Source: Burkholderiales bacterium | Lineage (GTDB): Bacteria > Pseudomonadota > Gammaproteobacteria > Burkholderiales > Casimicrobiaceae | Length of the DNA: 64,000 bases | Direction: 5' to 3' | NCBI GenBank assembly: GCA_031277215.1 | Contig: JAITMR010000042.1 | Location: forward strand, 52,781 to 116,780 | Shown: positions 6,347 through 46,152 of the stretch, one piece after another | How positions within the stretch are numbered: the stretch's first letter is position 1 | Layout: every line of letters starts with the position of its first letter | Notes under the pieces: model-generated | Seen by the model: only the letters and a program-made list of their open reading frames with translations | The model's database searches: none | Told to the model about the DNA's origin: nothing | Translations under genes and position numbers: made by a program

Positions 6347-9300
6347 ATGCCCAAAAGAACCGACATTCACAGCATTCTTATCATTGGCGCCGGGCCGATT
6401 GTTATCGGACAGGCGTGCGAATTTGATTACTCCGGCGTGCAGGCGTGCAAAGCATTGCGCGAAGAAGGGTATCGCGTCATTTTGCTCAACAGCAATCCGG
6501 CGACCATCATGACCGATCCGGAAATGGCCGATGTGACCTACATCGAGCCGATCACCGTCGAAGTGCTCGAGCGCATTCTTGCCGAGCAAAAACCCGATGC
6601 GATTTTGCCGACCATGGGCGGGCAGACGGCGTTGAATGCGGCGCTCGATCTGCACCGTCGCGGGCTTCTCGAAAAATACGGCTGCGAATTGATCGGCGCT
6701 TCGCCCGATGCGATTGACAAAGCCGAAGATCGGAAGCGCTTCAAAGAAGCGATGGAGAAAATCGGCCTGGAATCAGCGCGATCCGGTATTGCGCACTCTC
6801 TGGAAGAAGCGCTGGCGGTGCAGCGCGACATTGCACAGGCGACACGGAGCACGGGCTATCCGATGATTATTCGACCGTCGTTTACCCTTGGCGGTACCGG
6901 TGGCGGCGTGGCGTACAACCCGGAAGAGTTCAAAGAGATTTGTCAGCGTGGACTGGAGTTGTCGCCGACGCATGAATTGTTGATTGAAGAATCGTTGCTC
7001 GGCTGGAAAGAATTCGAGATGGAGGTCATTCGTGACCGTGCCGATAATTGCATCATCGTGTGCTCGATTGAAAACCTCGATCCGATGGGAATCCATACCG
7101 GAGACTCCATCACCGTAGCGCCAGCGCAGACGATGACCGACAAAGAATACCAGATCATGCGCAGCGCCTCGTTTGCGATACTGCGCGAGATCGGTGTGGA
7201 TACCGGCGGATCCAACGTGCAGTTTGCGGTGAGTCCGAGAGATGGCCGGATGATTGTGATCGAAATGAATCCGCGCGTGTCGCGTTCATCCGCGCTGGCG
7301 TCGAAGGCGACAGGCTTTCCGATTGCCAGAATTGCCGCCAAGCTGGCCGTTGGTTATACACTCGACGAACTGAAAAACGACATCACCGGCGGAACCATTC
7401 CGGCCTCGTTCGAGCCGACCATTGATTACGTCGTGACCAAAGTCGCACGTTTTGCGTTTGAAAAATTCCGCGAAGCCGATCCACGCTTGACCACACAAAT
7501 GAAGGCAGTCGGCGAAGTGATGGCGATGGGTCGGACGTTTCAAGAATCATTGCAAAAAGCGTTGCGCGGATTGGAGATCGGAGTCGACGGTCTCGACGAA
7601 CAATCGAAAGACCGCGACGACATCGTCGAACAAATGAGTGAAGCGGGGCCGATGCGGCTGTGGTACGTGGCCGACGCATTCCGACTGGGGATACCCTTCG
7701 ACGAAATTCACAGGGAAACGGACATCGATCCGTGGTTTTTGGCGCAAATCGAAGACATCGTGGCGATGGAGGCGCGATTGGCCGCGCACTCGCTTGAAGC
7801 GTTGTCCGAAAAAGAAATGCGGCTGTTGAAAGGCATGGGTTTTTCCGACCGGCGCTTGGCAAAACTGCTGAACACGACGCAAGCGGCTGTGCGTGAGAAA
7901 CGTTTATCGCTTGGCGTCAGGCCGGTTTACAAACGTGTCGATACCTGCGCGGCGGAATTTGCCAGCAGCACGGCGTATTTGTATTCGACCCATGAAATGC
8001 CGCTGCATGGACAAACACATGGCGTTTGCGAAGCGCGTCCAAGCGGACGACGCAAAATCATGGTTCTGGGCGGCGGGCCCAACCGGATCGGACAAGGGAT
8101 TGAGTTCGATTACTGTTGCGTGCATGCGGCGATGGCGTTGCGCGAAGATGGTTTTGAAACCATCATGATCAACTGCAACCCGGAAACCGTATCGACCGAC
8201 TACGATACGTCTGACCGACTGTATTTTGAACCGCTGACGCTCGAAGACCTGCTTGAAATCGTTGACCTTGAAAAACCGGAAGGCGTGATCGTCCAGTTTG
8301 GCGGTCAAACGCCGTTGAAGTTGGCACTGGCGCTCGAAGCGCACGGCGTTCCGGTGATCGGCACCTCGCCGCAAAGCATTGATGCCGCAGAAGACCGCGA
8401 GCGCTTCCAACAACTGCTCAACAAACTGGGTTTGAAGCAACCGCCGAACGCAACGGCGCGGACAGAAGAAGAGGCGTTGCGTTGCGCCGAGTCAATCGGT
8501 TATCCGCTGGTGGTGCGCCCGTCGTATGTGCTCGGCGGGCGTGCGATGGAAATCGTTCACGAAGCGCGTGATCTCGAACGCTACATGCGCGAAGCCGTGA
8601 CCGTGTCGCCCGATTCACCAGTGCTTCTTGATCGTTTTCTCGATGATGCGATTGAATGCGACGTTGACTGCGTTTCCGATGGCGAGACCGTATTCATCGG
8701 CGGCGTGATGGAACACATCGAACAAGCGGGCGTTCACTCCGGCGATTCGGCGTGTGCGCTGCCGCCGTATTCGCTGTCGGCGACGACGATAGAAGCGATG
8801 AAAGCACAAACGCGGGCGATGGCGAAGGCACTCGACGTGGTCGGCTTGATGAACGTGCAATTCGCCATTCAGCAAACGGCGCACGGCGATGTGATTTATG
8901 TCCTCGAAGTCAACCCGCGTGCATCGCGTACCGTGCCGTTTGTTTCCAAGGCAACGGGACTGCCGTTGGCAAAGATCGCGGCACGCTGCATGGCGGGTAA
9001 AACGCTCAAAGCACAAGGCATTCTCGAAGAAGTGGCACTCAAGCGATGCAACGTTAAAGAAGCCGTGTTTCCGTTCAGCAAGTTTCTTGGCGTCGATCCG
9101 GTGTTGGGGCCGGAAATGCGCTCAACTGGCGAAGTCATGGGAATCGGCGAAACGTTTGGCGAAGCGCTGTTCAAAGCGCAGTTGGCGGCAGGCGTGCGTT
9201 TGCCCGATAGCGGTACGGTGTTGTTGACGGTCAAAGACGCCGACAAGGTGCGTGCCGTAAAAGTTGCGAAGACACTGGCGACGATGGGCGGCTATACACT

Positions 9301-23941: not shown

Positions 23942-24892
23942 TCATTGATCTGATTCAGGGGCGCCTTCTCGCCACGACTCCCAATGAGCGACGATATGAT
24001 TGACGACGCGCCCGCCGACTTTCTCCAGGTTGTCGATGCTGTCGGCCAGACCGTCGGTCGTGTGTTCCAGCGCCACGGCCAAATGTTGCACCGTCGTTTC
24101 GCCGGGAGGCGGCTGATCGAAGTTGGCGGCGACTCTAAGGCTCATCACCCGTTCCAGCCCGTGCAATTGCTGGATGACCTGGGCGATGGCAATGCCTTCC
24201 ATTTCGGAGATCACATAATCATCGGCGCCGTAGAGTTGGGCGATGGATTGCGCTTGCGCCGACAGTCCGGGGCCGTGAAAAAAGCAGTCGCTGGTAACGT
24301 GGGTTCCGGTGCTGACAGACGGTGCGCTACGCGCTTCCGCGTGGGGGTAACGCGAACAATAGGCTTCGACCGCGCCGGAGCGCTTGAGTGTCGTGTCGGC
24401 GGACAGTTTCATCGCTTGGGCGACGAGTACCGGATTGAGTTGAAGTGCAGAGGTTGTTTCAAAATTACGGCAAGGGAGAAACGGCATTTTTCCCGGCGCT
24501 CCTTCGTCCGGCGACCAACGATGCCCAAGATCGGCATCGACGAGCCAAGTTCCCCAGATCACCGAGCCGATGCTGGCTTTCGACGGCGGCGCACCGGCAG
24601 CGCCGGAAATCACGAAGTATGCTTCGGAAAAATCGAAACGGGGATCGAGCAGAATCGCCTGCATCGCTGCTGAGGAGCGCACTTTGCCGATGCCGAGCAC
24701 AGCGCCGCAAACGCCATCTTGGTTGCAATAAACCGGATGAGAAGCGCCGCGCACTGCAACAGGCGTGATGCCTTGCCAGTAACGCATTTGCCAATGGCGA
24801 AATTCGCTGGCACCCTGACCGTTTCCGTCGTCGAACTCAAACATCGTGGCGATAAATACTTTGATTTTGATCGGCGTTATCACCATCGACAT
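23942..24892 (-). CDS. NUP-family purine nucleoside permease/phosphorylase-like protein
   Basis: The 316-residue product resembles the NUP family (COG5042): KVFIATMFEFDD near the N-terminus, GIGKVRSSAAMQAILLDPRFD, YFVISGAAGAPP, and EMEGIAIAQVIQQL. The last parallels the catalytic/substrate loop of nucleoside phosphorylases. The family was named for a yeast nucleoside permease, but the fold is phosphorylase-like, so enzymatic action is as likely as transport. ATG 24892 follows AAAGGA. I see no obvious signal peptide. It is convergent with lnt. Confidence 0.8.
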   Translation of the reverse strand: MSMVITPIKIKVFIATMFEFDDGNGQGASEFRHWQMRYWQGITPVAVRGASHPVYCNQDGVCGAVLGIGKVRSSAAMQAILLDPRFDFSEAYFVISGAAGAPPSKASIGSVIWGTWLVDADLGHRWSPDEGAPGKMPFLPCRNFETTSALQLNPVLVAQAMKLSADTTLKRSGAVEAYCSRYPHAEARSAPSVSTGTHVTSDCFFHGPGLSAQAQSIAQLYGADDYVISEMEGIAIAQVIQQLHGLERVMSLRVAANFDQPPPGETTVQHLAVALEHTTDGLADSIDNLEKVGGRVVNHIVAHWESWREGAPESDQ

Positions 24893-25044: not shown

Positions 25045-25902
25045 CTACGCCATCACTGCGCGCATTTTTTGCAAAGCGCGCGCTTCGATTTGGCGGATAC
25101 GTTCGGCGGAAACGCCGTATTCATCGGCCAGTTCTTGCAGCGTCATCGATGCTTCGTCTTCGTCCCGCAGCCAGCGAGCACGAACGATGGCGGCGCTGCG
25201 CTCGTCCAGTGACGCCAGTGCTTTTTGCAAGGTTTCACGGCGGTGACGTTCAGTTTGTTCAGCCTCGACGATGTGCGCCGGTTCGTCTTCCTTGTTCGTC
25301 AGGTAATACGCGGGCGAGGCATGATATTCTTCATCGCTTTCCGGCATCGGATCGAGCGATACTTCACCGCCCGCCAAGCGTGTTTCCATTTCAAACACTT
25401 CTTCCGGTTTGACGTTCAGCGTTCGCGCAATTTCATTCGTTTCTTTTTGCGTCAGCGCCGCAGCCCCTTTTTTCATACTGCGAAGATTGAAGAACAGTTT
25501 GCGTTGCGCTTTGGTGGTGACCATTTTCACGATTCGCCAATTGCGCAAAACATATTCGTGAATTTCGGCGCGAATCCAGTGTAGCGCAAACGACACCAGA
25601 CGCACGCCGCGTTCTGGGTCGAAACGGCGCACCGCTTTCATCAGCCCAATGTTGCCTTCCTGAATGAGATCGGCCTGTGGCAGCCCGTAGCCCAGGTATT
25701 GACGCGATACCGCCACCACCAGCCGCAGATGCGAAAGCACCATTTCGTGCGCCGCGTTGAGATCCTGTGCGTCGCGCCAGCGCTGCGCCAGCGATATTTC
25801 CTGCTCGGCGGTGAGCAGCGGAAAACGGTTAACCGCTTGGATGTAGTGATCCAGACTGCCCAATGATACCGGGGTCGGCAATACCAGCGATTGACTTGTC
25901 AT
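25045..25902 (-). CDS. rpoH: RNA polymerase sigma factor RpoH (sigma-32)
   Basis: The 285-residue heat-shock sigma factor has region 2 (DLIQEGNIGLMKAVRRFDPE, SFALHWIRAEIHEYVLRNW), the RpoH box KAQRKLFFNLR that separates it from RpoD and RpoS, and region 4 with the helix-turn-helix TLQELADEYGVSAERIRQIE. ATG 25902 has a textbook AGGAGG site; the open frame continues 51 bases upstream, but that is leader. A CIRCE operator lies 61 bases upstream. The expected targets grpE, dnaK and dnaJ are in this window and carry matching promoters. Confidence 0.97.
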   Translation of the reverse strand: MTSQSLVLPTPVSLGSLDHYIQAVNRFPLLTAEQEISLAQRWRDAQDLNAAHEMVLSHLRLVVAVSRQYLGYGLPQADLIQEGNIGLMKAVRRFDPERGVRLVSFALHWIRAEIHEYVLRNWRIVKMVTTKAQRKLFFNLRSMKKGAAALTQKETNEIARTLNVKPEEVFEMETRLAGGEVSLDPMPESDEEYHASPAYYLTNKEDEPAHIVEAEQTERHRRETLQKALASLDERSAAIVRARWLRDEDEASMTLQELADEYGVSAERIRQIEARALQKMRAVMA

Positions 25903-25959
25903 TTCTTCCTCCTTTGCTACCCTCTGTTGGTTCTTTTCGTTTGAACCTTTCAACTTACT

Positions 25960-25989
25960 ATTTTAGCACTCCCAAGGGGGGAGTGCTAA
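25960..25989 (-). promoter_or_regulatory. CIRCE operator (HrcA site) over the rpoH promoter
   Basis: TTAGCACTC (25963-25971), nine bases, GAGTGCTAA (25981-25989): a perfect 9-9-9 CIRCE element, the binding site of the heat-shock repressor HrcA. On the minus strand a -10 TAAAAT (25965-25960) and a -35 TTAGCA (25989-25984) with 18-base spacing overlap it, so HrcA bound here would block rpoH transcription. Confidence 0.92.
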
Positions 25990-26080
25990 TCAGATGTCAG
26001 AGATCGGAGGCCAGAGATCAGAAAGGCGTCATGGTGAGTGGGAAGTATTCATCTCACGCGAAGGCGCAGAACGCAGCCCC
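25988..26080 (+). repeat. Composite repeat block (ladder plus TCACGCGAAGG)
   Basis: Five GATCAG-like steps (25988-26023) start at the very end of the CIRCE element. They are followed by ATCTCACGCGAAGGCGCAG (about 26050-26068) and a CCCCCTTCC stretch. The order is the same as at 1058-1193 and, inverted, at 1281-1337. Confidence 0.7.
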
Positions 26081-26125: not shown

Positions 26126-26497
26126 TTACAGTCGGCGCGGCATCAACGCGGCCAGCACCAGAAACGCCCAACCGAGAATCATGACGCTGCCGCCGACCGG
26201 CGCCGCCATCGGGAACAGGCGCAGGTCGAGAAACGTCCGACGGGCGAGGTCGCCGCAAAAGAAAGCAATTCCCAGCACCAACAGAAAGCCGGCCAGAAGC
26301 AACAGCCGCCGCGGCGTGTTGGCAACCCGTATCAGCGCCGTGATACCGAGCAAGACCGGAGCATGCACCAGCAGGATATCGGCGCAGGTTTTCAGCATGT
26401 CCGGGTAATTGCCGTGCGCTGCCATTGCGGAAAAAGCGATACCGGTTGCGCCTGCGATACCGGAAAAAATCAAAAGAAAACGTTCTGCGATGCTCAT
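26126..26497 (-). CDS. DUF423 small membrane protein
   Basis: The product of about 123 residues has four hydrophobic helices. The C-terminal segment LFPMAAPVGGSVMILGWAFLVLAA and the N-terminal GIAGATGIAFSAMAAHG match the DUF423 (YgdD-like) family of inner-membrane proteins of unknown function. ATG 26497 follows AGGAGGTG. A GTG at 26506 lies inside the ribosome site and is excluded. Confidence 0.85.
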   Translation of the reverse strand: MSIAERFLLIFSGIAGATGIAFSAMAAHGNYPDMLKTCADILLVHAPVLLGITALIRVANTPRRLLLLAGFLLVLGIAFFCGDLARRTFLDLRLFPMAAPVGGSVMILGWAFLVLAALMPRRL

Positions 26498-26595
26498 GAC
26501 CCCCACCTCCTAATTATTTTATTGTCATCAGCCGTTATTCTATGTGCGGTACGGCTTATGACATAATATAGTTCTTTCCCCCGCCGATTGCCGCT

Positions 26596-42171: not shown

Positions 42172-42199
42172 CTTGAAAATCTTTTGACTGCCTCCATCT
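42172..42199 (+). promoter_or_regulatory. Sigma-32 promoter of grpE
   Basis: CTTGAAA (42172-42178), 13 bases, CTCCATCT (42192-42199), matching the heat-shock consensus CTTGAAA-N11-15-CCCCATNT except for one base. It is 30 bases upstream of the grpE start. Confidence 0.75.
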
Positions 42200-42229: not shown

Positions 42230-42796
42230 ATGCCACATACACCCGAACACACAGAACCGGTGCCGACGGATCATGAAATGACGGCTCCGGCCAACGCGAT
42301 GCCGGAGGCTGAGTCTCCGCCAGCGGATGCTGCGGTCGACTTGGCCGCCTTGTTACAGAAGACCGAAGCGGAAGCTCAGGAGTTGCGAGATGCGTTTCTA
42401 CGGGCGCGTGCCGAAACGGAAAACGCACGCCGACAGGCGCGTGAGGAAATCGCCAAGGCGGGGAAATTCGGCATTGAACGTTTTGCCGCCGACCTTTTGG
42501 CGGTCAAGGATGCGCTGGAACTGGCGTTGATAACAGAGAGCGCCACACCCCAACAAATGCGGGACGGCGTGATGCTGACGCTGAAGCAGTTGAACGCCGC
42601 TTTCGAGAAAGCGCACATTCAGGCAATTGACCCACGGGGGCAACCCTTCGATCCGCACCGGCATGAGGCCATGCAGATGATCGAGTCCGACGCGCCCGCC
42701 CATACCGTGGTGGAAGTATTCCAGAGAGGGTACCTGATTCATGACCGGGTTCTAAGACCGGCGATGGTGATTGTCGCCAAAGAAAAAACCTCGTAA
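42230..42796 (+). CDS. grpE: Nucleotide exchange factor GrpE
   Basis: The 188-residue co-chaperone dimerises and releases ADP from DnaK. An acidic, disordered N-terminus (about 45 residues) leads into a long coiled coil (LAALLQKTEAEAQELRDAFLRARAETENARRQ) and the C-terminal beta-wing (FDPHRHEAMQMIES, VVEVFQRGYLIHDRVLRPAMVIVAK). It is first of the grpE-dnaK-dnaJ cluster and has its own sigma-32 promoter. No CIRCE is present upstream. Confidence 0.95.
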   Translation: MPHTPEHTEPVPTDHEMTAPANAMPEAESPPADAAVDLAALLQKTEAEAQELRDAFLRARAETENARRQAREEIAKAGKFGIERFAADLLAVKDALELALITESATPQQMRDGVMLTLKQLNAAFEKAHIQAIDPRGQPFDPHRHEAMQMIESDAPAHTVVEVFQRGYLIHDRVLRPAMVIVAKEKTS

Positions 42797-42823
42797 AGAA
42801 AGCGTCATGGCATCAAAGAGGGG

Positions 42824-42851
42824 CTTGAGTTGGAACAAACCGCCCCCATTT
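42824..42851 (+). promoter_or_regulatory. Sigma-32 promoter of dnaK
   Basis: CTTGAGT (42824-42830), 13 bases, CCCCATTT (42844-42851): a perfect -10 and a near-perfect -35 for sigma-32. It is 51 bases upstream of dnaK, in the grpE-dnaK gap. Confidence 0.8.
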
Positions 42852-42901
42852 AACAGCCATCGAAATTTTCAGCAAACTCAATAAATCACGGAGAACACAA
42901 A

Positions 42902-44866
42902 ATGGGCAAGATCATTGGCATTGACTTGGGTACGACCAACAGTTGCGTAGCGATCATCGAAGGCGGCCAACCCAAGGTTATCGAAAATTCGGAAGGTACG
43001 CGGACGACGCCATCGGTGGTGGCGTATATGGAGGACGGCGAAATCCTCTGCGGCGCACCGGCCAAGCGGCAGGCAGTGACCAATCCGCGCAACACGCTGT
43101 TTGCGGTGAAGCGGTTGATCGGTCGCCGTTTTGAAGAAAAGGAAGTGCAGAAAGACATCGACCTGATGCCATTCTCGATTGTCAAGAACGACAACGGCGA
43201 CGCTTGGGTTGAAGTGCGCGGCAACAAGATGGCGCCGCCGCAAATTTCGGCGGAAGTTCTGCGCAAGATGAAAAAAACGGCGGAAGATTATCTCGGCGAA
43301 GAAGTGACCGAAGCGGTGATTACAGTTCCGGCGTACTTCAACGACAGCCAGCGGCAGGCGACCAAAGATTCCGGCAGAATCGCCGGTCTTGAAGTCAAGC
43401 GGATCATCAACGAACCGACGGCGGCGGCGCTGGCGTTCGGCCTCGACAAAAAAGAGGGCGACCGCAAAATTGCGGTGTACGACCTTGGTGGCGGAACGTT
43501 CGACGTTTCGATTATCGAAATTGCCGAGCTTGACGGCGAGCATCAGTTTGAAGTGTTGTCCACCAACGGCGATACCTTCCTCGGCGGTGAAGATTTCGAC
43601 CAGCGGTTGATCGACTACATCGTCACCGAATTCAAAAAAGATCAGGGCGTCGATCTCAAGAACGACGTGCTGGCGTTGCAGCGGCTGAAAGAGACAGCGG
43701 AAAAAGCGAAGATCGAATTGTCGAGTTCGCAACAAACCGAAATCAACCTGCCGTACATCACGGCGGATGCGTCGGGGCCGAAACACCTGTCGATGAAAAT
43801 CACCCGCGCCAAATTCGAGGCGCTGGTTGAAGATTTGATCGAGCGCACGATTGTGCCGTGCCGGACGGCGATTAAGGACGCGGGCGTCAAAATCTCCGAT
43901 ATCGGCGACGTGATTCTGGTCGGCGGCATGACGCGGATGCCGAAGGTGCAAGAGAAAGTCAAAGAATTTTTCGGCAAAGAGCCGCGCAAAGACGTGAACC
44001 CCGACGAAGCGGTGGCGGTGGGCGCGGCGATTCAGGGATCGGTGTTGGCCGGTGAGCGGCGCGACGTGTTGCTGCTTGACGTGACACCATTGTCGCTTGG
44101 AATCGAAACACTGGGCGGCGTGATGACCAAACTGATCCAGAAAAACACGACGATTCCAACCAAGGCATCGCAAGTCTTTTCAACCGCAGACGACAATCAG
44201 AGCGCGGTGACTGTGCATGTATTGCAGGGCGAGCGTGATATGGCGAGCGGCAACAAGAGCCTTGGCCAGTTCAATCTGGAAGGCATCCCGTCAGCGCCGC
44301 GCGGCATGCCGCAGATTGAAGTGACGTTCGACATCGACGCTAACGGTATCCTGCATGTGTCGGCCAAGGATAAGGCAACAGGTAAGGAAAACAAGATTAC
44401 GATCAAGGCCAACTCAGGTTTGTCTGACGAAGAAGTTGATCGGATGGTGAAAGATGCCGAAGCGCACGCCGATGAAGACAAGAAGTTGATGGAAGCGGTG
44501 CAGGCGCGTAATGAGTTGGATGGTCTGGTTCACAGCGTCAAGAAATCGTTGGCTGAGTACGGCGACAAGATCGGTAGCGATGACAAGACCAAGATCGAAG
44601 AAGCGCTGAAAGACGCCGAAGAAACGTTGAAAGAAAAAGATGCGGCCAAGGAAACGATGGCGGCAAAGAGCGAGGCGCTGGCAACGGCGTCGCAGAAACT
44701 TGGCGAAGCGATCTATGCTGCCGCACAAGCGGAAGCTGCAGCGGCGCAGGCAGAGGGAGCTGCACAGTGCGGCGCTCAGGGGGCAACCAATGGCAGCGGC
44801 AAACCCGGTGACGACGCCAAAGTGGTTGACGCCGAATATACCGAAGTGAAAGACAAAAAAGAGTAA
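42902..44866 (+). CDS. dnaK: Molecular chaperone DnaK (Hsp70)
   Basis: The 654-residue ATP-dependent chaperone shows the phosphate-1 motif [12 protein letters not shown] at the start, [15 protein letters not shown], the phosphate-2 motif [13 protein letters not shown], and the interdomain linker [19 protein letters not shown]. The substrate-binding domain and helical lid end in the conserved VVDAEYTEV. The lid tail before it is Ala/Gln/Gly-rich. Full length and intact. It has its own heat-shock promoter and is followed by a hairpin and dnaJ. Confidence 0.98.
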
Positions 44867-44887
44867 TTCCGATGTAAGAAAGGAACA

Positions 44888-44920
44888 ACACAGGACAGGG
44901 AAAAATGCCTTGTCCGGTGT
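44888..44920 (+). other. Hairpin between dnaK and dnaJ
   Basis: ACAC-A-GGACAGG (44888-44899), loop GAAAAATG, CC-T-TGTCC-G-GTGT (44908-44920): about 11 pairs with one mismatch and one bulge, followed by ATTTTCT. It could act as a partial terminator or RNA-stability element that lowers dnaJ relative to dnaK. Confidence 0.45.
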
Positions 44921-45003
44921 ATTTTCTGGAAAACACGTTGGGAAAGAAGTTAGATAAAGCATTGAAAGCGGTGAAGACGAAGCAAGGAAGGTGATTCACA
45001 ATC

Positions 45004-46152
45004 ATGGCCACATCGAACAAGCGCGATTACTACACAGTATTGGGATTAGGCCGCGATGCCTCCGAGGAGGACATCAAAAAAGCGTACCGCAAGCTGGCGA
45101 TGAAACACCACCCGGACCGAAACACCGGCGACAAAGACGCGGAAGAAAAATTCAAAGAAGCAAAAGAGGCGTATGAAATATTGAGCGACGCCAACAAACG
45201 TGCGACTTACGATCAGTTCGGTCATGCGGGTGTTGACCCGAACATGGGCGGCTTCGGCGGTGCGGGCGCGGCGGGCTTCGGCGGCTTTGGTAACTTCGCC
45301 GACGCTTTTGGCGACATCTTTAGCGAAGCCTTCGGACAGGGGCGCGGCGGGCGGGCGAATGCCGTATATCGCGGCGCCGATTTGCGCTACAACCTGGAAC
45401 TGTCGCTCGAAGACGCAGCACGTGGCACCGAATTGAAGATTCGGGTGCCGACGCAAGAAACCTGTGAAACCTGTCACGGTAGCGGCGCCAAGCCGGGAAC
45501 CGAACCGAAAACATGTCCCACTTGCCACGGTCGCGGAGAAGTCCGTATCTCGCAGGGATTCTTTTCGGTGCAGCAAACTTGTCCGAAATGCCACGGTCGC
45601 GGCAACGTCGTGACGACGCCGTGCGGCGATTGCCACGGAGCAGGGCGCATCAAAAAGCAGAAAACGCTGTCGGTCAAAATTCCGGCAGGCGTCGATCAGG
45701 ACGACAGGATTCGTTTGGCCGGTGAAGGCGAAGCGGGCATCAACGGCGGTCCGCCGGGCGATTTGTATGTGGTGATTCATCTGAAACAGCATCCGGTGTT
45801 TCAGCGTCAGGGCGCCGACCTGCATTGCGAAATGCCGATCAGTTTTGCGGCGGCGGCGCTTGGTGGTGAAATTGAAATTCCGACACTTGATGGCCACGCC
45901 AAAATCAAAGTTCCGGCGGAAACGCAGACGGGACAAGTTTTCCGGTTGAAAGAAAAAGGCATCCGACCGGTGCGCGGACAACGCACCGGCGATCTCTTTT
46001 GCCATGTGATCGTTGAGACGCCGCAGAAATTAACGGCGCGACAAAAAGAACTGCTGCGCGAATTTGAAACCATCTCTCAGGAAGACCCCGGCAGACACAG
46101 CCCGCGCGCCAAAAGTTGGATGGAAAAGATGAAAGCCTTTTTCTCGGCGTGA
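45004..46152 (+). CDS. dnaJ: Chaperone protein DnaJ (Hsp40)
   Basis: The 382-residue co-chaperone has a J domain with HPD ([10 protein letters not shown]), a Gly/Phe-rich segment ([18 protein letters not shown]), four CxxCxGxG zinc repeats ([32 protein letters not shown]) and the C-terminal substrate domain. This is a complete class A DnaJ. The ATG follows GGAAGGTGA. No CIRCE or convincing sigma-32 promoter lies directly upstream, so it is probably read through from dnaK. Confidence 0.97.

Follow-up and report, generated by a model that had tools for sequence, protein, structure and literature searches.

The HrcA operator and the rpoH promoter

Why would an operator of the repressor HrcA lie before rpoH, the gene of sigma-32, and what would it do there? 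The question is raised by a CIRCE element in the window (the whole stretch of DNA that was analysed, 64 kb long). This element is a perfect palindrome, TTAGCACTC-N9-GAGTGCTAA, with 0 mismatches, and a gap of 60 bp separates it from the rpoH ATG (25902, minus strand). It is the sole match at up to three mismatches in the 64 kb window, and 100 dinucleotide shuffles of the window gave 0 matches. On the minus strand, which is the coding strand of rpoH, the sequence across the CIRCE and the promoter reads TTAGCACTCCCCCCTTGGGAGTGCTAAAATAG. The features of the locus are as follows:

25045..25902, minus strand: rpoH, sigma-32, 285 aa (TIGR02392, NF005143; Pfam regions 1.2, 2 and 4)
25903..25953, minus strand: predicted rpoH leader of about 51 nt, with AGGAGG at 25913-25908
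25960..25968, minus strand: predicted extended -10, TGC-TAAAAT, formed by the CIRCE right arm and three flanking bases (consensus scan, conservation)
25963..25989, no strand assigned: CIRCE operator, predicted HrcA site (motif match, conservation before rpoH in relatives)
25984..25989, minus strand: predicted -35, TTAGCA, the CIRCE left arm read on the minus strand (TTAGCA or TTGGCA kept in 69/76 rpoH sites)
26126..26506, minus strand: DUF423 membrane protein gene (PF04241), upstream of rpoH and in the same orientation

The identity of rpoH is given by the NCBIfam equivalog TIGR02392 (392 bits vs. a cut-off of 323), and the RpoH box (QRKLFFNLR) is intact in its product. In Escherichia coli, this box matters for control by chaperones and proteases.

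A consensus scan predicted a sigma-70 promoter of the extended -10 type at 25989-25960 on the minus strand: TTAGCA, 18 bp and TAAAAT, the last of these having a TG one base upstream. It was the only site on either strand of the window to pass a strict filter (spacer of 18, extended -10, at least four of six matches at -35 and at least five of six at -10). The first-pass annotation had proposed a mismatch-free CIRCE overlapping a -35/-10 pair before rpoH, and this is borne out. The overlap can be described more closely, in that the CIRCE itself supplies the -35 and the beginning of the -10. As for the interval 25960-25989 given at that time, the CIRCE proper occupies 25963-25989, while the start at 25960 takes in the remainder of the -10 hexamer (25965-25960). 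Judging from the -10 spacing, rpoH transcription would start near 25953.

Two additional roles for this region were considered and rejected. An RNA thermosensor in the rpoH leader finds no support in the fold of 25953-25800, which is ordinary (z -0.36), and the CIRCE serves no divergent gene, since the upstream DUF423 gene faces the same way as rpoH. Downstream of rpoH and on its strand, positions 23942-24892 of the window match the purine nucleoside permease NUP family (PF06516, E = 1.7e-70), known mainly from fungi. The gap upstream of rpoH contains CTCACGCGAAGGCGC (26053-26067), possibly an interspersed repeat: the window has five near copies (0.5 expected), and the sequence also occurs upstream of hrcA. 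A search for a repeat near rpoH and hrcA gave no confirmation.

HrcA, groESL and the sigma-32 sites

The genome (1.9 Mb in 73 contigs, 91% complete) encodes one hrcA (contig C43, E = 4e-69), whose 342 aa product has both Pfam domains, the DNA-binding and the C-terminal HrcA domain; its neighbours are NAD-kinase-like and ferrochelatase-like genes, named from recognisable sequence. A genome without hrcA, which according to the first-pass annotation would have refuted a dependence of sigma-32 synthesis on HrcA, is thus not what was found, and the genome-wide CIRCE search proposed there returned only two CIRCE sites in the whole genome. One precedes rpoH and the other precedes groES, so that groESL, expected as a constant co-target in an HrcA/CIRCE regulon, has its CIRCE here too. 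Autoregulation of hrcA through CIRCE was rejected because no site at up to three mismatches lies near hrcA.

The grpE-dnaK-dnaJ genes (42230-46152) are likewise without CIRCE at up to three mismatches, and this part of the window includes predicted sigma-32 promoters:

42172..42197, plus strand: predicted sigma-32 promoter before grpE, CTTGAA-N14-CTCCAT, 11/12 consensus bases
42230..42796, plus strand: grpE, presumed sigma-32 target without CIRCE (PF01025, ORF)
42824..42849, plus strand: predicted sigma-32 promoter between grpE and dnaK, CTTGAG-N14-CCCCAT, 11/12 consensus bases
42902..44866, plus strand: dnaK (ORF and recognisable sequence)
45004..46152, plus strand: dnaJ (ORF and recognisable sequence)

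Only three sites reach 11/12 consensus bases on both strands of the window, two of them being those that precede grpE and dnaK. The third, CTTGAA-N13-CGCCAT, lies at 7544 on the minus strand.

A comparison of 76 rpoH sites with 38 groES loci revealed two different architectures around the same operator. At the rpoH sites, the three bases after the CIRCE complete a -10 box, which is TAAAAT in 35 cases and TAATAT in 16. The AT at positions 5-6 of the -10 hexamer was present in 62/76 rpoH sites vs. 2/38 groES sites (p = 7e-16, a nominal value), which means that completion of the -10 by the CIRCE-flanking bases is specific to rpoH. At nearly all of the 38 groES loci, there is instead CTTGAA/T, followed after about 12-15 bp by CCCTATTA, which ends a few bases before the CIRCE. 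This box resembles a sigma-32 promoter, and the CIRCE would then coincide with the expected start of the predicted transcript.

Conservation and loss of the operator among relatives

The rpoH site was followed through 41 genomes, that of the window among them, drawn from its genus, family and order. An rpoH gene was found in 40 of these; the CIRCE precedes it at up to two mismatches in 39/40 relatives with intact rpoH, while the remaining one has it at four mismatches. The two closest named relatives, with RpoH identities of 89 and 88%, are the MAGs Lab288P4bin72 and Cu122P4bin11, which we suspect, from their isolate codes, to originate from termite guts. A strict pattern extending the CIRCE by NAT, namely TTRGCACTC-N9-GAGTGCTAR-NAT with no mismatch, matched in 160/300 genomes of the order, and 30/30 retrieved loci were rpoH; the reversed pattern found no match in the same 300 genomes. 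Across the whole order, the operator is nearly unchanged at rpoH, while its flanks diverge.

Named genomes carrying the rpoH site include Nitrosomonas, Herbaspirillum, Pandoraea, Rugamonas, Polynucleobacter, Uliginosibacterium and others, as well as some gammaproteobacteria (Dyella, Methylocaldum, Pseudoalteromonas), while the enterobacterial, Vibrio, Aeromonas, Shewanella and Haemophilus rpoH loci are without CIRCE. Such a distribution indicates that the rpoH CIRCE is an old trait common to most related bacteria and no peculiarity of one genome. The earlier suspicion of a lineage trait of betaproteobacteria holds with respect to the trait, although not to its limits, given the gammaproteobacterial sites and a published case in Geobacter (PMC545781).

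Xanthomonadaceae and their neighbours (L031, L055, L063, L061) have a variant palindrome before rpoH, TTAGCAGTC-N9-GACTGCTAA or mixed arms, in which a C-to-G change is mirrored in both arms; it may mean an altered HrcA specificity. In Pseudoalteromonas luteoviolacea (L072, genome G071), a perfect CIRCE, the only one found in the genome, precedes rpoH in the usual ftsY-ftsE-ftsX context, and HrcA is matched only very weakly there (E = 1.2e-11), in contrast to every other hrcA genome of the same search.

The fate of the operator where hrcA is missing was followed in 55 further genomes of the order with rpoH found, picked mostly for missing the strict pattern, with CIRCE accepted at up to four mismatches. 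The rpoH CIRCE was kept in 33/35 genomes with hrcA vs. 0/20 without intact hrcA (Fisher p = 5e-13, a nominal value given the relatedness and selection of the genomes). In these genomes of the order, the site is gone wherever hrcA is gone, which fits HrcA being its user. The two genomes with hrcA and no site near rpoH are G283 and G322; a good rpoH CIRCE is likewise missing at L057, L061 and L074, whose genomes have hrcA. In the named set, most genomes without hrcA are also without the site; the two exceptions, MAGs of L048 and L073, are perhaps incomplete assemblies. An apparently decaying hrcA was seen in G142 (C49, 23722-24117): the fragment is interrupted by an internal stop, and rpoH of this genome has no CIRCE.

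Three genomes without hrcA (G237 as well as G094 and G295, which belong to a single genus) have lost the inner bases of the operator but still have a -35/-10 pair at unchanged spacing; G237 retains TTGGCA-18-TAGAAT with its TG. Such survival of the hexamers is what one would expect of a sequence that is operator and promoter at once.

A proposed circuit and its place among known systems

We consider it highly probable, reading from the sequence, that HrcA represses rpoH through the promoter-overlapping CIRCE. As the predicted sigma-70-dependent promoter is built into the operator, bound HrcA would stand directly in the way of RNA polymerase. HrcA, assisted by GroEL, would keep both rpoH and groESL down at normal temperature, in the latter case by covering the transcription start; GroE raises HrcA binding in other bacteria, and upkeep of HrcA activity by GroEL is described for Bacillus, Chlamydia and Helicobacter (review PMC6032397). 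Once unfolded proteins fill GroEL, HrcA activity would drop and rpoH would be transcribed. Sigma-32 would then act on grpE-dnaK-dnaJ and on the sigma-32 promoter of groESL, simultaneously released from HrcA. Such wiring would amount to a coherent feed-forward loop that GroEL closes and that is reset once GroEL is again in excess. Further rpoH promoters outside HrcA control could exist, including readthrough from the DUF423 gene.

Several other readings of the operator have to be weighed. Chance or an assembly artefact has a negligible probability: the shuffles gave no match, the identical arrangement is found again in ten congeneric relatives and throughout the order, and this conservation already refutes it. 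That conservation of the palindrome reflects a promoter or an RNA structure instead of HrcA binding is very improbable. The CIRCE arms do supply the -35 and -10 elements, as this explanation has it; however, the CTC and GAG outside the hexamers are near-invariant where the site is kept and decay without hrcA, while the hexamers can persist. Moreover, groES has these 18 bases as well, and they form no -10 there.

It is rather unlikely that HrcA binding is a minor layer which does no more than trim basal rpoH transcription, with sigma-32 controlled mainly post-transcriptionally (through translation and DnaK/FtsH-dependent stability) as in Escherichia coli. This is not mutually exclusive with HrcA repression of rpoH, and both the intact RpoH box and the retention of rpoH in relatives without hrcA fit it. 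An operator almost unchanged order-wide despite diverging flanks argues against it, as does the ordinary fold of the short leader, though translational control remains compatible with the latter. We give an even chance to a wider reading, which concerns a large part of the betaproteobacteria and some gammaproteobacteria. In these, the rpoH promoter would be the HrcA operator, the two being one sequence, so that GroEL load through HrcA, and not translation, would be the first sigma-32 switch, in a feed-forward with groESL; loss of hrcA in single lineages would free rpoH while the promoter half could survive.

An rpoH CIRCE is an already known kind of arrangement, because the case of Geobacter sulfurreducens was published in 2004: a perfect TTAGCACTC-N9-GAGTGCTAA lies before rpoH at -51 (Rodionov et al. 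2004, PMC545781, Table 8). In Geobacter as here, groESL is another target, but Geobacter has a further CIRCE before hrcA-grpE-dnaKJ, whereas grpE-dnaK-dnaJ and hrcA of the present genome have none; the part of PMC545781 consulted holds no discussion of promoter overlap at the Geobacter rpoH CIRCE. A partial literature search aimed at betaproteobacteria found the Geobacter report alone for rpoH, and HrcA is not mentioned in Leyn et al. (2016). Nor did a partial search yield a description of the promoter fusion, of its contrast to groES or of the co-loss with hrcA. Permina and Gelfand (2003; doi 10.1159/000077248), which by its title deals with HrcA/CIRCE regulons in beta-, gamma- and epsilon-proteobacteria, is the work to which CIRCE profiles are credited.

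With Bacillus subtilis, where HrcA/CIRCE governs the dnaK and groE operons, our locus shares the operator, the repressor family and the GroE-titration logic (PMC6032397). Unlike in Bacillus, the repressor is placed here above a sigma factor. Bacillus is not known to have a sigma-32. Escherichia coli has the orthologous sigma-32 driving grpE/dnaK and groE, and a search of its genome as a control gave no match to HrcA (PF01628). Textbook knowledge of sigma-32 comes mostly from this species. Should rpoH be gated by HrcA in most relatives of the present bacterium, the heat-shock response of these relatives would begin with a transcriptional switch sensing GroEL load; the scheme known from enterobacteria would then be that of lineages without the switch. 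The related lineages with and without hrcA allow such a scenario to be tested by comparison.
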